From a bacterium (GTDB taxonomy: Bacteria; Zhuqueibacterota; QNDG01; JAFGCO01), in assembly GCA_016932575.1 (NCBI GenBank), contig JAFGCO010000044.1, forward strand, positions 1 to 64,000: DNA of 64,000 bases. Reading direction: 5' to 3'. Of this stretch, positions 17,779 through 24,096 are shown in pieces. The stretch's first letter is position 1; each line of letters opens with the position of its first letter. Made by a program: the position numbers and the translations under genes. The notes below the pieces were generated by a model, which was not told the DNA's origin, searched no databases, and saw nothing but the letters and a program-made list of their open reading frames with translations.

Positions 17779-18678
17779 ATGGCTGAAAAACAATTTATTT
17801 TTCTGATGGGGCGTTCTGAAGACGATGAATTAAGAACCGTCGTCGTTCCGGTGAAACGTCTTTTTATATTTGGCGGACTATTCATTGTGGTTTTTGTATC
17901 TTTAGCGTATTTGCTCGGACGCGGTTTTCAGGGGGCTGAAACCAACTTCCGCACCCATAAAATTATGCAGGAAAATCGTATTCTTAAAAATAATCTGGAT
18001 GCCTGGGATGAGCGGTTTAAAGAAATGCAGGCCGATATTAATGATTTAACCAAGCGTAATCACCAGATACGCATGACAGCTTCTCTTTCTTCACCGGATG
18101 TGGCCTTTGGTATGGGGGGGCCTGAATCATCCGTGAGACCTGAATTGATCGATAATCCTAAATTGCATTATTTGGAGCTGGATTTGGCACGTCTGGACGC
18201 AGAGTTGACTTGGCTGAAGCAAAGCACGGTTGAAATTGAAGACAAACTGGAATCGAAGTACAAGGAAATTGCCCACTATCCCTCGATTCGGCCAGTAAAA
18301 GGCGGATGGGTAACATCCGGATTTGGAGTGCGAAGAGATCCCTTTACAGGGGTCAATGAAATGCACCCGGGACTGGATATTGCCCTTAAACCGGGTTCAG
18401 AGGTCAGAGCTACCGGCGCTGGTATTGTCAAACATGTCAATTTACGAGTCATCAAGAACAAGGGATATGGTAAATATATTATTATCGATCACGGATTTGG
18501 GCATGAAACCCTTTATGGCCATCTTTCTGATATATTTGTCAAGCGAGGTCAGCAAGTGAAGCGGTGGGATCTGATTGGACTGAGCGGAAACACAGGTAAG
18601 TCCACAGCGCCGCATATCCATTATGGTGTATATGTTCATGGAGACGCGAAGGATCCGGTCAATTTTATCTTGGATTAA
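17779..18678 (+). CDS. M23-family peptidoglycan endopeptidase, membrane-anchored
   Basis: In this 299-residue protein, residues about 27-47 are an uncleaved membrane anchor (LFIFGGLFIVVFVSLAYLL). Residues about 60-165 are a coiled coil. The C-terminal LytM/M23 domain contains SGFGVRRDPFTG, the zinc ligand motif HPGLD, and HIHYG with the second His pair. All metal ligands seem present, so it may be an active D,D-endopeptidase in the periplasm; the coiled coil resembles EnvC/MepM-type regulators of cell-wall cutting. Its end overlaps the end of a convergent HAD gene by 14 bases. Confidence 0.93.
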   Translation: MAEKQFIFLMGRSEDDELRTVVVPVKRLFIFGGLFIVVFVSLAYLLGRGFQGAETNFRTHKIMQENRILKNNLDAWDERFKEMQADINDLTKRNHQIRMTASLSSPDVAFGMGGPESSVRPELIDNPKLHYLELDLARLDAELTWLKQSTVEIEDKLESKYKEIAHYPSIRPVKGGWVTSGFGVRRDPFTGVNEMHPGLDIALKPGSEVRATGAGIVKHVNLRVIKNKGYGKYIIIDHGFGHETLYGHLSDIFVKRGQQVKRWDLIGLSGNTGKSTAPHIHYGVYVHGDAKDPVNFILD

Positions 18679-19297
18679 GATTGAAATCGTTTTGTAACCC
18701 TTTCCATAATTCCACGAATTGAACATCGTCTGTGAAATGAATAATTTGTATGCCCAGTTGTTTGGCAGTTCGCACGTTTTCTTTTCTATCATCAACGAAT
18801 AAAATATTTTTCGGCGGTAATCCGATAACAGCCAATGCCTTATGAAAGATTTCCGGATTGGGTTTCACCTCTCCCAGTTCATGACTGTAAAATCGTTTTT
18901 TAAACCATTGCATAAATGGATAGCAGCTTTCGCAATGTTCCGAATGCCAGGCATTTGTATTGGAAAGGATGTAACATGGATATCGATGCCTGATTTCATC
19001 GAGAAAACGGATCATGGGTTCAATAAGAGAAAAAATGGACTGCCAGAGTGTTTTAAAGTGCTCCATGGATATTGTAAGATCAAGATCACGAACGGCTTGT
19101 TGATAAAACTGCCGGTTTGTGAGAAGGCCTTTTTCATATAACCGCATGATTTCCGAATCTGTAAAGTAATTCTGGATCTGCATGTAGGTCAGCGAGGAAG
19201 ATTCTTCCAATTTCTGGATAGAATGAACAGGGTTGACTTGGATAAATACGTTTCCCAGATCAAAGAGAATGGCAGAAAATTTGTATTTTGATTGCAA
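18665..19297 (-). CDS. HAD-superfamily hydrolase, YihX-like
   Basis: This 210-residue protein has HAD motif I FDLGNVFI with Asp as nucleophile but Gly in place of the second Asp, as in the YihX/epoxide-hydrolase-like branch. Motif II is LSNTNAW, motif III Lys lies in VKPNPEIF, and motif IV is LFVDDRKENV. It is probably a small-molecule phosphatase such as a sugar-1-phosphatase; the substrate is unknown. The start appears to be TTG at 19297, 18 bases after the chemoreceptor gene, so it is the last gene of that operon. The 3' end overlaps the convergent M23 gene. Confidence 0.85.
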   Translation of the reverse strand: MQSKYKFSAILFDLGNVFIQVNPVHSIQKLEESSSLTYMQIQNYFTDSEIMRLYEKGLLTNRQFYQQAVRDLDLTISMEHFKTLWQSIFSLIEPMIRFLDEIRHRYPCYILSNTNAWHSEHCESCYPFMQWFKKRFYSHELGEVKPNPEIFHKALAVIGLPPKNILFVDDRKENVRTAKQLGIQIIHFTDDVQFVELWKGLQNDFNLNPR

Positions 19298-19315: not shown

Positions 19316-21688
19316 TTAATCAATTTTACCATTGGTTTCGAACATGGCGAGAAATTCATTTTCGTTTTGTGACATTTTTTCCAGATTTTGGGCCAAAGTA
19401 CGCACATTCTCAAGTTGTTCTCCCATCTCTTTAATGGATGAATTGACCTGATTGACGCCAGTCGTATTTTTGGTGCTGGCCATGGCCACTTGGTCCATAG
19501 ATAAACCCACCTGATGTGACATGGATTGCATTTCATGGATGGCATTTGTGATGCTTTGGGTGCGACTGCGGTCCGAATCCACCAGTCGCTTGATATTTTC
19601 CAATGCCAGGTGGGTTTCATCTGTAAATTCTTCTGAATTTTGAATCATATTGGTTCCTGTGCGCATGGCCTTTTCAACAAGCTGTATGTCCATTTTAATG
19701 GTTTCAATCAGGGTGGCCACTTCACGGTTGGCTTCTGTTGTATTCATAGCCAGTTTACGTATCTCTGAAGCCACTTTACTAAAGCGTTTTTCATGGGATC
19801 CGGACTGGGTTGCCTCGATAGATGCATTCAAAGCCAAAATGTTGACTTTTGATGAGATGTTGCTGATTAAATCAATAATATTGTCAATTTTATTTGAATG
19901 TTGACGTAATTCTTCCACAGTTTTCCAGGATTTATTCACGGAGTCGGCTATGGCTCTTAATGTGGTTAATGTTTTTTTCATGGCTTCTGTGCCTGTGGTT
20001 ACAGCTTTGCCTGTATTTTCAGAAGCGCGCTCGCTTTCATTGGCTTCACGTCCGATTTGGTCAATACTGTTTAAAAGTGAATCCATAATCGACCGGGTTT
20101 TTTCCACTTGATTGTTTTGTGCCATGCTTCCATCAGCAATATTGCTGATGGCGTTTCGAATTTCGGTGGTTGAGATAATCACATGTTGTGTGGTTCCGGC
20201 CAGATCCATGGCCAAGCGTGAGAGACGATATGCCTGATCAGTTAATGTCTGAATCAAACTGCGCAGATTTAACGGCTCCGTATGCACTGTTATCACAGGA
20301 ATCCCTGCATTCACTGCACGGTTGATTGAATTGATCAGTCTGGGATCTTCCACAAATGTAATAATACCATCCACTTTTTTATGAATCAGTTTTTCAATCT
20401 GTTTTCCGTAGACCATAGCGCTGAAGTCACCCTTTTCGCGGGTCTCGTCAGGAACCAGCCATACCAGATCGACATTATGGGCCATCAAAGTATCTTTTGC
20501 CGCCATATATCCTTCCCGAACACGATCCCAGATTTCCGAGTCTTCTCTTGCCAGAAAGACAATGCGATAGGATTTTTCTGGAGTTTTATCTGACGGTTTG
20601 GCCAAATGTGTGATGGCCTCCCTTGAAAGCATCCATCCATGAGAAGGATGCCAGTGATGGTTCAGATTCTCTTCTGTGATCAAATTGGCCGGGAGAAGCA
20701 TCTGGGGTTTTGGAGGGATCCACCCTTCCACCAGGTGGTTGTATAAATAGATGGCAGAATCATGGCCCTGAATATAGGAGTTCTGATCCAACAGCACATC
20801 AATCGCACCTGATTTGATATAGTGAACGTTTTCCTGAGTGATTTCATGACCGATCACTTTGATTTTTTTATGCACGGATTTTTCACTTAGAACCTCGGCA
20901 ATAATCGAAGCGGTGGCTGTATCAGTGGCATAAATCCCTCTCAATTTTGGATAGGATTCCAGTAAGTCTGCAATAAAATTCGCACTGAAATCCCGGTTCA
21001 TCATGGATTCGAATGTATCGACGATCTGGATCTCAGTATTTCCTTCAATATAGGATTGAAAGCTTTTTCGACGTAGTTCAAGCATTGTATTGAACAAGAG
21101 GCCGGTGGCAATCAATACCTGTCCTTTATTGCCCAGCATTTCAGCCATAAGCTCTGCACATTTTTTTCCTTCCGCAATCGGATCTGCACCGATAAATCCA
21201 ATACGCTTACAAGGGGCATCTGTAATCGAGTTAAAATCATCGATGATGGCATTTAAGTTGTCACGCAACAGGTGCAAGATTTCAGACAATGTTTGCATCG
21301 GTTGCGGTACTTTGGATGGCGGATAATTGGAATGAAGATGAAGCTTCTGTGTTAAATTACCCAGTGTCAGATTGGATATTCCGCGAGCCAGGGCCGGAAA
21401 GTCCCGTTCGGTAATCAACTTTCCGGTTTGTCTTAAATTTCGAATGGGCAGATATTTGCGGAAATAATTAAAAAGGGAAAAATGTCCTGCGATTAGAAAA
21501 GCCAGTAAAAAGAGAAAACAGGAAATCAAGAAGACAGTACTGACAGGATCCGGCAGGCCGCGTTCTTTCAAATTCGGATACGTTGAGAAGATTAAATGTC
21601 CGAATAAAACAACGAATAAAATAATCCACCCCATTATTATAATAAGATACCGATGTCGGTTCAGAAATTGTTTAATGTTTGTTTTCAT
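19316..21688 (-). CDS. Chemoreceptor with HAMP-like linker and permuted sugar-binding-protein module
   Basis: In this 790-residue protein, two membrane helices (about 14-36 and 49-70) are separated by a loop of only about 12 residues. A HAMP-like helical linker (ISNLTLGNLTQKL) follows, so everything after about residue 72 should be cytoplasmic. Residues about 160-325 match the second half of an RbsB-type binding protein (IGFIGADPIAEGKKCAELM, GIYATD, KVIGHEIT, DQNSYIQG). Residues about 375-475 match the first half (YRIVFLAREDSEIWDRV, KKVDGIIT, AGIPVITVHTEPL). An MCP signalling domain follows, whose tip reads NILALNASIEATQSGSHEKRF, lacking the usual Gly-rich tip. It is a paralog of the gene upstream and overlaps it by four bases. 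Confidence 0.82.
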   Translation of the reverse strand: MKTNIKQFLNRHRYLIIIMGWIILFVVLFGHLIFSTYPNLKERGLPDPVSTVFLISCFLFLLAFLIAGHFSLFNYFRKYLPIRNLRQTGKLITERDFPALARGISNLTLGNLTQKLHLHSNYPPSKVPQPMQTLSEILHLLRDNLNAIIDDFNSITDAPCKRIGFIGADPIAEGKKCAELMAEMLGNKGQVLIATGLLFNTMLELRRKSFQSYIEGNTEIQIVDTFESMMNRDFSANFIADLLESYPKLRGIYATDTATASIIAEVLSEKSVHKKIKVIGHEITQENVHYIKSGAIDVLLDQNSYIQGHDSAIYLYNHLVEGWIPPKPQMLLPANLITEENLNHHWHPSHGWMLSREAITHLAKPSDKTPEKSYRIVFLAREDSEIWDRVREGYMAAKDTLMAHNVDLVWLVPDETREKGDFSAMVYGKQIEKLIHKKVDGIITFVEDPRLINSINRAVNAGIPVITVHTEPLNLRSLIQTLTDQAYRLSRLAMDLAGTTQHVIISTTEIRNAISNIADGSMAQNNQVEKTRSIMDSLLNSIDQIGREANESERASENTGKAVTTGTEAMKKTLTTLRAIADSVNKSWKTVEELRQHSNKIDNIIDLISNISSKVNILALNASIEATQSGSHEKRFSKVASEIRKLAMNTTEANREVATLIETIKMDIQLVEKAMRTGTNMIQNSEEFTDETHLALENIKRLVDSDRSRTQSITNAIHEMQSMSHQVGLSMDQVAMASTKNTTGVNQVNSSIKEMGEQLENVRTLAQNLEKMSQNENEFLAMFETNGKID

Positions 21689-24096
21689 GAAGTTGAATCA
21701 ATGACCTCCATGTTATCTAATAAATGGGTAGAGACGTTAAATTTACCTAAAAGTTCAAGTTCGCTTTGAGCCATCATTTCCAATGTTTCTGCGAGTTGCG
21801 TGACTTGCTGGAACTGCAAAACCATATCTTTTGTCGCCTGATTGACATTTTGAACGGATTCCGTATTTTTTTCACTGACCTCTGTCACAAGATTCATGGC
21901 TTCTTCAACACGATAAGAATAGGTTTGAATTTCAGCAACCGCATCTGCAATGCTTTTTAACCGACTCTGATCTGTTTCAACCAGCGAGCGAATGTTATGT
22001 AAAGCACTCCGTGCATCTGTTGTTTGTTTTGCTGATTCCTGGACTTGGGACAAACCGGACCTCATGACATTTTCAATTTTTGATATGTCCTTTTTTACCT
22101 GGTTCACCAGCTTAATAATACCCTGAGTGGCTTTATCTGTATTTCTTGCCAGCCGGCGTACTTCATTTGCGACGACCATAAATCCCTGACCTTCGTTGCC
22201 TGCTTGTATGGCTTCTATCGATGCATTAAAGGCAAGCACGTTTATTCGCGATGTAATGTCCTGAATCAAATCAACGACATTATCGATTCGTTCAGAGTGT
22301 TTGTCCAGTTCTTCGATGGTTTGCCAGGATTCGGTAACAGACGTTTCGACATTTTTCACTATCGATAATGTTTTTTCCATGGAATTGGCACCGTCAGTAA
22401 TGGCGATGGCAGTGTTTGCGGTCGCTTTTGCGCCTTCTTCTGTTGCCTGGTTAACCTGATTGATATTGGCGAGCAAATTTTTCAGGATATCCTGTGTATG
22501 AGATACCTGATTGTTTTGCAGAACCGATCCTTCGGAGATCATATGCATGGCTTCTATGATTTTTTGTGTGAGATGGTTGGCTTCGTCTGCGTTGTTGCCC
22601 AGATCTTCACTAAAGTGCATAAGTTTTTCAGCCTGATCGGTAATGGACTGAATCAGGCCTTGAAGGCTGATTGGTTCGCTGTTGAACGTGATTACCGGAA
22701 TGCCTTTTTTTACGGCCTTGTTGATCATTGGGATCATGCTGCGATCCAGAACGAGTGTGGCAATACCATCATATTTTTCATTGATTGCGGATTCCAGGGC
22801 TTTTCTGAAAACAGCCCCTGCCCGCAGATCGGAGTAACCAGGAGGAACGATATAATCTATTGTCACATTGTGGGAAATCAGTTGCTCTTTGGCATTCATG
22901 ACAGCCGCTTTTACGGGTTCCCAAAAGGCGGAAGTTGCCACGCACAAGACAGCGATGCGAAGCGGCCGATCATTCATTTTATCTGAAAGCTTGACAAGTT
23001 GGTTTAAGGATTCCTGCGATTGAATCATTCCGTGATCGGGATGCCAGAATTGTTGATAATTTTCAGGCGTGACCACATTTAATTGAGTCAGCATGCGCGG
23101 CGAAAAAGGTTTCCAGTCACCAACCAGGTAATTGTATAAAAGGATAACAGGATTGTATCCCTGGGCATAGGCATTCTGATCCAATGTGGCCTGAATGATG
23201 CCTTTGGACAGGTATTCCATGGTAGAATCGGTAAGGTCGTGCCCCACAATTTTTATTAGTCCGACTTTATTTTTTTCCTGCACCGCACGTGCCGCACCAA
23301 AAGGAGTTGCGCCCTGAGTGATGTAGATGCCCCGAAGGCGGGGATATTGTTCGATGGCTTCTTTTGTGTATTGATAGGTTTTTTCATGATCTTCATGGTC
23401 TTCCAGAACCTTGAGTACTTTGATGCGGGGGAATTTGGTCCTGAGGGCATTGATGAATCCCTTTCGCCGGAGTTCGAAATTTGTTGCTGAATAGAGGCCC
23501 ACAATAATGATGACTTCTCCCTGGCCTTTCAGCAGCTCTCCCATGACCTGACCGCATTTCTGACCTTCTAAAAATGAGTCAGCACCGATATAACATAACC
23601 GATGGCATGGAACATCTGTAAGAGTGTTTAATTCATGAGCGCAGTCCTGTAATCCCTGAATGATATTTTTCAGTAGAACCGCCAGCTCTTCCTGCTGATT
23701 CTGCTTTTCTGTCAATTGGATTGATTGGATATGCAGAGAAGCGGACAGATCGCCCTGGGCCAATTCACTCATCACGTTTGAGAATGCTTTAGTATCAGTT
23801 TCAGTGATTTCGTATAACTGGTGAATGACATCTTCCGAAGCTTTCCAGTCGTATTTATGATGCAGCCATGCCATAAAAACAAGGGCTGCCAGGCCCGCCA
23901 GGAAAATAAGAATAGAATTCAAAATAAAATTGGGAAAAGGCTGAATGATATCAGCAGAATGATTTATACCAATAAGGTGATGCTGGTAGAGAGCCCCGTA
24001 CACAATACCGGCGACCAGTAAACAAAAGATAAATCCCAATACACAATAAAATAATTTATTTTCGCGAAACAGGTCCCACAGCTTGGAAAATGGCAT
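21685..24096 (-). CDS. Chemoreceptor paralog with HAMP-like linker and permuted sugar-binding-protein module
   Basis: This 803-residue protein has the same plan as its downstream paralog. Two membrane helices (about 13-35 and 52-72) precede a HAMP-like linker (MSELAQGDLSASL). The second half of an RbsB-like fold follows (LCYIGADSFLEGQKCGQVM, GIYITQ, KIVGHDLT, DQNAYAQG), then the first half (LRIAVLCVATSAFWEPV, EKYDGIATL, KGIPVITFNSEP). An MCP domain with a near-canonical tip closes the protein (NVLAFNASIEAIQAGNEGQGF). The AAGGAG site supports the ATG at 24096. It starts an operon with the second receptor and a HAD protein. No cheA, cheW or cheR is nearby. The ligand domain seems to sense a cytoplasmic solute. 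Confidence 0.82.
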   Translation of the reverse strand: MPFSKLWDLFRENKLFYCVLGFIFCLLVAGIVYGALYQHHLIGINHSADIIQPFPNFILNSILIFLAGLAALVFMAWLHHKYDWKASEDVIHQLYEITETDTKAFSNVMSELAQGDLSASLHIQSIQLTEKQNQQEELAVLLKNIIQGLQDCAHELNTLTDVPCHRLCYIGADSFLEGQKCGQVMGELLKGQGEVIIIVGLYSATNFELRRKGFINALRTKFPRIKVLKVLEDHEDHEKTYQYTKEAIEQYPRLRGIYITQGATPFGAARAVQEKNKVGLIKIVGHDLTDSTMEYLSKGIIQATLDQNAYAQGYNPVILLYNYLVGDWKPFSPRMLTQLNVVTPENYQQFWHPDHGMIQSQESLNQLVKLSDKMNDRPLRIAVLCVATSAFWEPVKAAVMNAKEQLISHNVTIDYIVPPGYSDLRAGAVFRKALESAINEKYDGIATLVLDRSMIPMINKAVKKGIPVITFNSEPISLQGLIQSITDQAEKLMHFSEDLGNNADEANHLTQKIIEAMHMISEGSVLQNNQVSHTQDILKNLLANINQVNQATEEGAKATANTAIAITDGANSMEKTLSIVKNVETSVTESWQTIEELDKHSERIDNVVDLIQDITSRINVLAFNASIEAIQAGNEGQGFMVVANEVRRLARNTDKATQGIIKLVNQVKKDISKIENVMRSGLSQVQESAKQTTDARSALHNIRSLVETDQSRLKSIADAVAEIQTYSYRVEEAMNLVTEVSEKNTESVQNVNQATKDMVLQFQQVTQLAETLEMMAQSELELLGKFNVSTHLLDNMEVIDSTS

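Follow-up and report, generated by a model that had tools for sequence, protein, structure and literature searches.

TpMglB-2 (Tp0684) of Treponema pallidum is a published example of a circularly permuted sugar-binding protein (SBP), for which the designation "Type Ic" has been proposed (PMC4990184; PDB 5JX2, 6BGC, and 6BGD). Three strands of its N lobe have been moved behind the C lobe, the cut falling after strand 3 (PMC4990184). The permuted SBP fold, in other words, is already known. In the literature that we searched, this paper (PMC4990184) was the sole match linking permuted SBPs and chemoreceptors, and a permuted or SBP-type input domain in chemoreceptors was not found there. What is new within that literature is that such a domain serves as the input of a chemoreceptor on the cytoplasmic side, that it is spread over several phyla, and that there is evidence on how it arose.

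The window analyzed here, a bacterial contig stretch of 64,000 nucleotides, carries two tandem chemoreceptor genes on the minus strand, to which all window coordinates below refer. We read their products as membrane-anchored chemoreceptors in which a cytoplasmic, permuted CUT2-type (RbsB/glucose-binding-like) domain follows a HAMP-like segment and precedes the MCP coiled coil, with a sugar as input and a single duplication as origin, and we would put the probability of this reading at roughly two in three. Its computed parts are the order and homology of the blocks, the prediction of a single closed fold with two lobes, and the membrane topology from sequence.

Both proteins have the same order from N- to C-terminus: two transmembrane (TM) helices, a HAMP-like segment, the block that normally ends an SBP (C block), the block that normally starts it (N block), and the MCP signaling domain. 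Receptor 1 (21685..24096, 803 aa) has its TM helices at 23998..24054 (aa 15-33) and 23872..23928 (aa 57-75), followed by two predicted HAMP-like helices without a Pfam HAMP match (23620..23826, aa 91-159), the C block (23011..23610, aa 163-362), the N block (22672..22965, aa 378-475), and the MCP domain (21877..22359, aa 580-740). Receptor 2 (19316..21688, 790 aa), whose open reading frame (ORF) overlaps that of receptor 1 by 4 bases, repeats this architecture, with TM helices at 21590..21646 (aa 15-33) and 21488..21544 (aa 49-67), the C block at 20618..21214 (aa 159-357), the N block at 20273..20572 (aa 373-472), and the MCP domain at 19466..19939 (aa 584-741). The HAMP-like segment is weakly recognized throughout; Pfam HAMP matches 6 of 29 family members, receptor 1 not among them.

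Pfam Peripla_BP_4 matches both receptors in two stretches, with MCPsignal (PF00015) C-terminal to these and above its cut-off. In the best stretch of receptor 1, profile positions 95-256 lie at residues 166-326, and in that of receptor 2, positions 89-254 lie at residues 155-319. Residues 164-322 of receptor 1 correspond to positions 96-252 of the T. maritima glucose-binding protein 2QVC, and residues 379-474 to its positions 3-92; since the later part of 2QVC matches first and the earlier part second, the block order of receptor 1 is reversed. Against a canonical SBP (L069), receptor 1 aligns at 43% over 197 aa (E 3e-52) and 47% over 108 aa (E 1e-26), again in reversed order, and receptor 2 gives E values of 2e-37 and 8e-19 for the two blocks. 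With an HMM built from canonical sister SBPs only, the window receptors score 176.8 + 88.5 and 126.4 + 52.4 bits; the maximum of this HMM on 400 shuffled sequences is 4.3 bits, which rules out chance similarity of the blocks to SBPs. Two separate complete SBP domains per receptor are likewise ruled out, each block being present in a single copy. Measured against the type I/Peripla_BP_4 SBPs, the domain thus has the sequence and fold homology of the family and lacks its canonical N-then-C order. The initial annotation had described the SBP-terminal block as coming first and the SBP-initial block second, and had suggested aligning each half to binding-protein profiles; the alignments to 2QVC, to L069, and to the canonical-SBP HMM bear this out.

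AlphaFold2 models of both receptors contain a single closed two-lobed domain within one chain. For receptor 1 (residues 90-545, 29 sequences) most of the domain core has pLDDT values above 90, and the whole-model mean is only 79.8 because the flanking coils are weak; for receptor 2 (residues 150-500) pLDDT is 90.2 and pTM 0.85. Among the solved structures listed, only TpMglB-2 aligns over most of both blocks, with 286 residues aligned to the receptor 1 model (model 65-374; Z 24.1, rmsd 3.3 Å) and 283 to that of receptor 2 (Z 22.7, rmsd 3.3 Å). Canonical SBPs align over about 180-205 residues, namely the C block and its continuation. The initial annotation had pointed to residues ~150-480 as the place where a prediction would give either one closed two-lobe fold or a heterodimer swapped between the paralogs. 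The first of these is what each paralog yields; the second is not needed, each paralog alone being predicted complete. The two outcomes named there as contrary to a permuted cytoplasmic domain, complete domains in normal order and a third membrane helix, were looked for in the receptors and not found.

A profile of the region run against 84,980 species genomes returned 49 loci; the motif searched for belongs to the C block, and block order has no bearing on it. Half-domain HMMs sort these loci cleanly into 30 with the C block before the N block, two proteins of the form N-C-N-C, and free-standing proteins of about 350 aa with N before C. The permuted relatives (~30) occur in KSB1, Fibrobacterota, Acidobacteriota, and Chloroflexota. 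The permuted form is found in 8 of the 12 genomes of the window's order and in 10/82 of the phylum set, and the window's own genome holds four full-length copies. MCPsignal is present in each of the 32 permuted proteins examined, a set made up of 29 scan proteins, L032 (a paralog from the window's own genome), and receptors 1 and 2; neither a canonical-order MCP fusion nor a free-standing permuted SBP was found among the scan loci. Many relatives are encoded as single genes.

When the two halves are joined for phylogeny, the 32 permuted rows form one clade (support 96/94), the sister of which is a group of canonical SBPs from Anaerolineae and Spirochaetes (98/97), with 97/97 for the union. Ahead of the first block stands FNSxTDxPCxRL, which corresponds in register to the canonical SBP loop FNSETDxPNxRL; the copy in receptor 1, LNTLTDVPCHRL (23596..23631), is in register with FNSETxxPxxRL of canonical SBPs. 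The score of this relic is positive at offset 0 only and was reached by 1 of 500 column shuffles. A second copy of the boundary motif, FNSEP (22672..22686 in receptor 1), closes the N block, and two segments are kept at the C-N joint: the canonical C-terminal end NYxQFW, here as DNIDQFW, and the segment that precedes the strand, KPVDxxPxKPLRIAVLG. Relic and joint form the pattern that a tandem duplication would leave if truncation then took place within a single loop, and the N-C-N-C relatives, together with the boundary motif at both ends, point to such a putative duplication and truncation. In a single origin of this kind, a secreted SBP of the ABC type would have been duplicated in tandem, the leading N half and the trailing C half would then have been lost, and fusion to an MCP would have moved a formerly secreted protein into the cytoplasm.

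Tandem-duplicated SBPs, one ORF each, are encoded in two Anaerolineae MAGs (L063:5713-7890 and L064:5872-7962). The cores of their copies are identical at the DNA level for 725 and 818 bases and diverge afterwards. A divergent in-frame linker between the copies and the occurrence in two different MAGs argue against a pure assembly artifact; the identical cores may nonetheless reflect collapse or gene conversion, and for this reason we use neither protein as a dated intermediate. On the tree they fall late within the canonical clade and are not ancestral.

Two N-terminal hydrophobic helices precede the SBP domain in each receptor, and a membrane helix between the SBP and MCP domains was looked for in both and not found. 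The MCP domain has to be cytoplasmic. Lysine and arginine totals in 27 two-helix proteins are 83 before TM1, 19 in the loop, and 69 after TM2, a distribution that fits an N-terminus on the inside. One acidobacterial relative (L051, a single MAG sequence) has no hydrophobic helix in any upstream frame, and the prediction for it is a receptor that is soluble throughout. Because no TM helix separates SBP from MCP, and because this TM-less relative exists, we place the SBP domain in the cytoplasm. Export to the periplasm or cell surface, which is part of what defines an SBP, is accordingly absent, the domain lying between TM2 and the MCP domain. The arrangement first proposed for these proteins, two membrane helices and then a cytoplasmic ligand domain, thus agrees with the lack of a further TM helix, the charge counts, and L051.

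The binding pocket was examined through known sugar-contact positions of RbsB (F15, F16, D89, R141, F164, N190, D215, and Q235). In an alignment of the 32 permuted domains, R141 and Q235 are kept in 32/32 and F15 and D215 in 31/32, F16 is replaced by W in 29/32, and D89 by N in 31/32. The kept positions are contributed by both blocks, which is what a cleft formed jointly by the two would require, and the sister SBPs show the same pattern at them. The equivalents of N190 and F164 are not conserved, and the ligand is therefore probably other than ribose. Receptor 2 deviates at three pocket positions, with I for F15, H for D89, and E for D215, and may see another ligand.

Gene neighborhoods offer a second view of the ligand. 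A HAD-family phosphatase gene (18665..19297) lies 18 bases downstream of the receptor pair, and its spacing leads us to infer a common operon; the nearest NCBIfam model of its product is glucose-1-phosphatase, below the cut-off of that model. Several permuted receptors adjoin genes for GH2 (L031), GH13, GH31 and CBM9 (L032), GH97 (L043), and a GH109-like protein (L042). As raw occurrences, the GH genes at these loci and the HAD phosphatase would favor a sugar ligand. Pocket residues and neighborhoods taken together favor a sugar, nothing seen favors a nucleotide, and an internal sugar is the likely ligand as judged from these sequences. The canonical sister SBPs adjoin RbsC-type permeases and RbsA-type ATPases. 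At L063, L069, L072, L073, L076, and L081, an RbsC permease, SBP, RbsA ATPase, DUF4380 protein, creatininase, and URO-D/MtaA-like methyltransferase recur, not every gene being present at each of these loci, and from this sister neighborhood one may suspect that a methylated, sugar-like compound is taken up and demethylated.

How could such a domain signal? The cut falls directly behind strand four of the N lobe, in a loop, and both new ends are therefore in one short loop; the domain is thereby insertable between a helix coming from HAMP and a helix running into the MCP domain. A sugar-like ligand, lobe closure, helix transmission, and CheA modulation make up the mechanism that we infer. An internal sugar or sugar-like metabolite would close the cleft between the lobes, the movement of the lobes would alter how the two helices attached to the domain pack in the dimeric receptor, and the change in packing would set CheA activity through CheW. 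The signal would leave via the two helices attached at one N-lobe loop. The whole chain of events, from a one-time permutation by tandem duplication and truncation, through insertion into the HAMP-MCP helix, to a chemoreceptor class in at least four phyla that reads an internal sugar with a Venus-flytrap domain in its signaling coil, seems to us evenly poised between right and wrong.

The hairpin tip of the MCP domain reads SRINVLAFNASIEA and SKVNILALNASIEA in the two window receptors, versus the usual QTNLLALNAAIEA; the pattern of the clade is SRxNVLAxNASIEA, and Chloroflexi members retain the usual tip. Given this deviation, coupling to a standard CheA/CheW is not certain, and the clade that bears it may work with another CheA/CheW pair. 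In the window's own genome, genes for CheW, CheR, CheB, and a CheA-like protein of the form Hpt-HATPase-CheW-REC are clustered, so that Che proteins to which the receptors could couple are present. The CheA-like protein at L090:8768-11158 (Hpt, HATPase, CheW, REC) shows no match to the H-kinase_dim model. As a separate observation, L033:2608-6084 and L034:5099-8518, on contigs C49 and C45 of the same genome, encode Reg_prop beta-propeller and Y_Y_Y ectodomains fused directly to an MCP domain that belongs, like those of the window receptors, to this unusual clade; the ectodomains resemble those of hybrid two-component sensors.

Several other explanations deserve consideration. The permuted domain might have lost or changed its small-molecule role and now mediate dimerization or protein interaction, most plausibly in receptor 2, which has diverged in its pocket as described and sits on a long branch. 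However, the equivalents of R141, D215, and Q235, like the two aromatic positions, are retained by 29 to 32 of the 32 permuted proteins and come from both blocks, a conservation that suggests selection on the cleft, and we regard such a changed role as unlikely. Because chemoreceptors are dimers, the lobes might instead be exchanged between subunits or between paralogs, with no closure within a single chain, and a monomer prediction is compatible with such an exchange. Yet each paralog is predicted as a complete domain by itself, both models align over both blocks with the single-chain TpMglB-2, and many relatives are encoded as single genes; we give exchange only a slim chance.

A C half and an N half joined from two SBP lineages would make the domain a chimera and not a permutation, an idea for which the separate half-domain trees leave room, being too poorly resolved even to put a date on the event. 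Against it, both halves are nearest to the same canonical SBP group (receptor 1 is 53% identical to L072 in the N half and 40% in the C half), the joined tree places the permuted set as sister to that very group, and tandem SBPs exist within it, all of which renders a chimera very improbable. An SBP domain outside the cytoplasm, reached by an undetected third membrane crossing or an inverted topology, would be in keeping with where SBPs normally work, and the sole weak hydrophobic window past the SBP start (KD 1.47) is found in receptor 1. That segment lies inside the N block as part of the predicted SBP fold, though, and the obligate cytoplasmic position of the MCP domain with no helix between it and the SBP, the positive-inside counts, and L051 all disagree with an outside placement, which we find scarcely credible.

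We return, then, to membrane-anchored chemoreceptors with a permuted, cytoplasmic sugar-binding domain. If this reading is true, they would be a natural counterpart of biosensor engineering, in which a binding protein is permuted so that its ends meet and is then inserted into an output domain. The supposed steps would be visible in living relatives, as canonical SBP, tandem SBPs, and a permuted domain with its boundary relic. Chemotaxis would gain an internal sugar input by means of a fold that is otherwise mostly extracellular, and the testable question is raised of how a closing flytrap can drive an MCP coil if its two linkers share a single entry loop.

Among known systems, TpMglB-2 shares with these receptors the type I sugar-binding fold and the placement of the first N-lobe strands behind the C lobe, over which, as noted, the structures align in both blocks. 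It differs in being a secreted lipoprotein of an ABC importer, with no receptor fusion. The cut in the window receptors also falls one strand later, the fourth strand, GIPVITF, staying in the N block, and this suggests that the permutation may be independent of that in TpMglB-2. PDB 5ER3, an SBP of Rhodopirellula baltica, was aligned by Foldseek over 257 columns and runs collinear to the permuted arrangement, query 225-474 matching chain 30-271; nature may have permuted this SBP as well, with the cut elsewhere. The CUT2-type SBPs (RbsB, the T. maritima glucose-binding protein, and GanP) have homologous blocks and most sugar-contact positions in common with the receptors, but are canonical in order, exported, and free-standing. 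Nearest kin of both halves, with very similar pocket motifs, are the Anaerolineae and Spirochaete sister SBPs (L069-L073, L075, L076, L079, L081, and the tandem L063/L064), which differ in their canonical order, their N-terminal signal-like helix, and their location in ABC operons. Finally, cytoplasmic or membrane-anchored chemoreceptors with an internal input, such as TlpD with its CZB domain (PMC12871147), likewise combine a cytoplasmic input with an MCP output.
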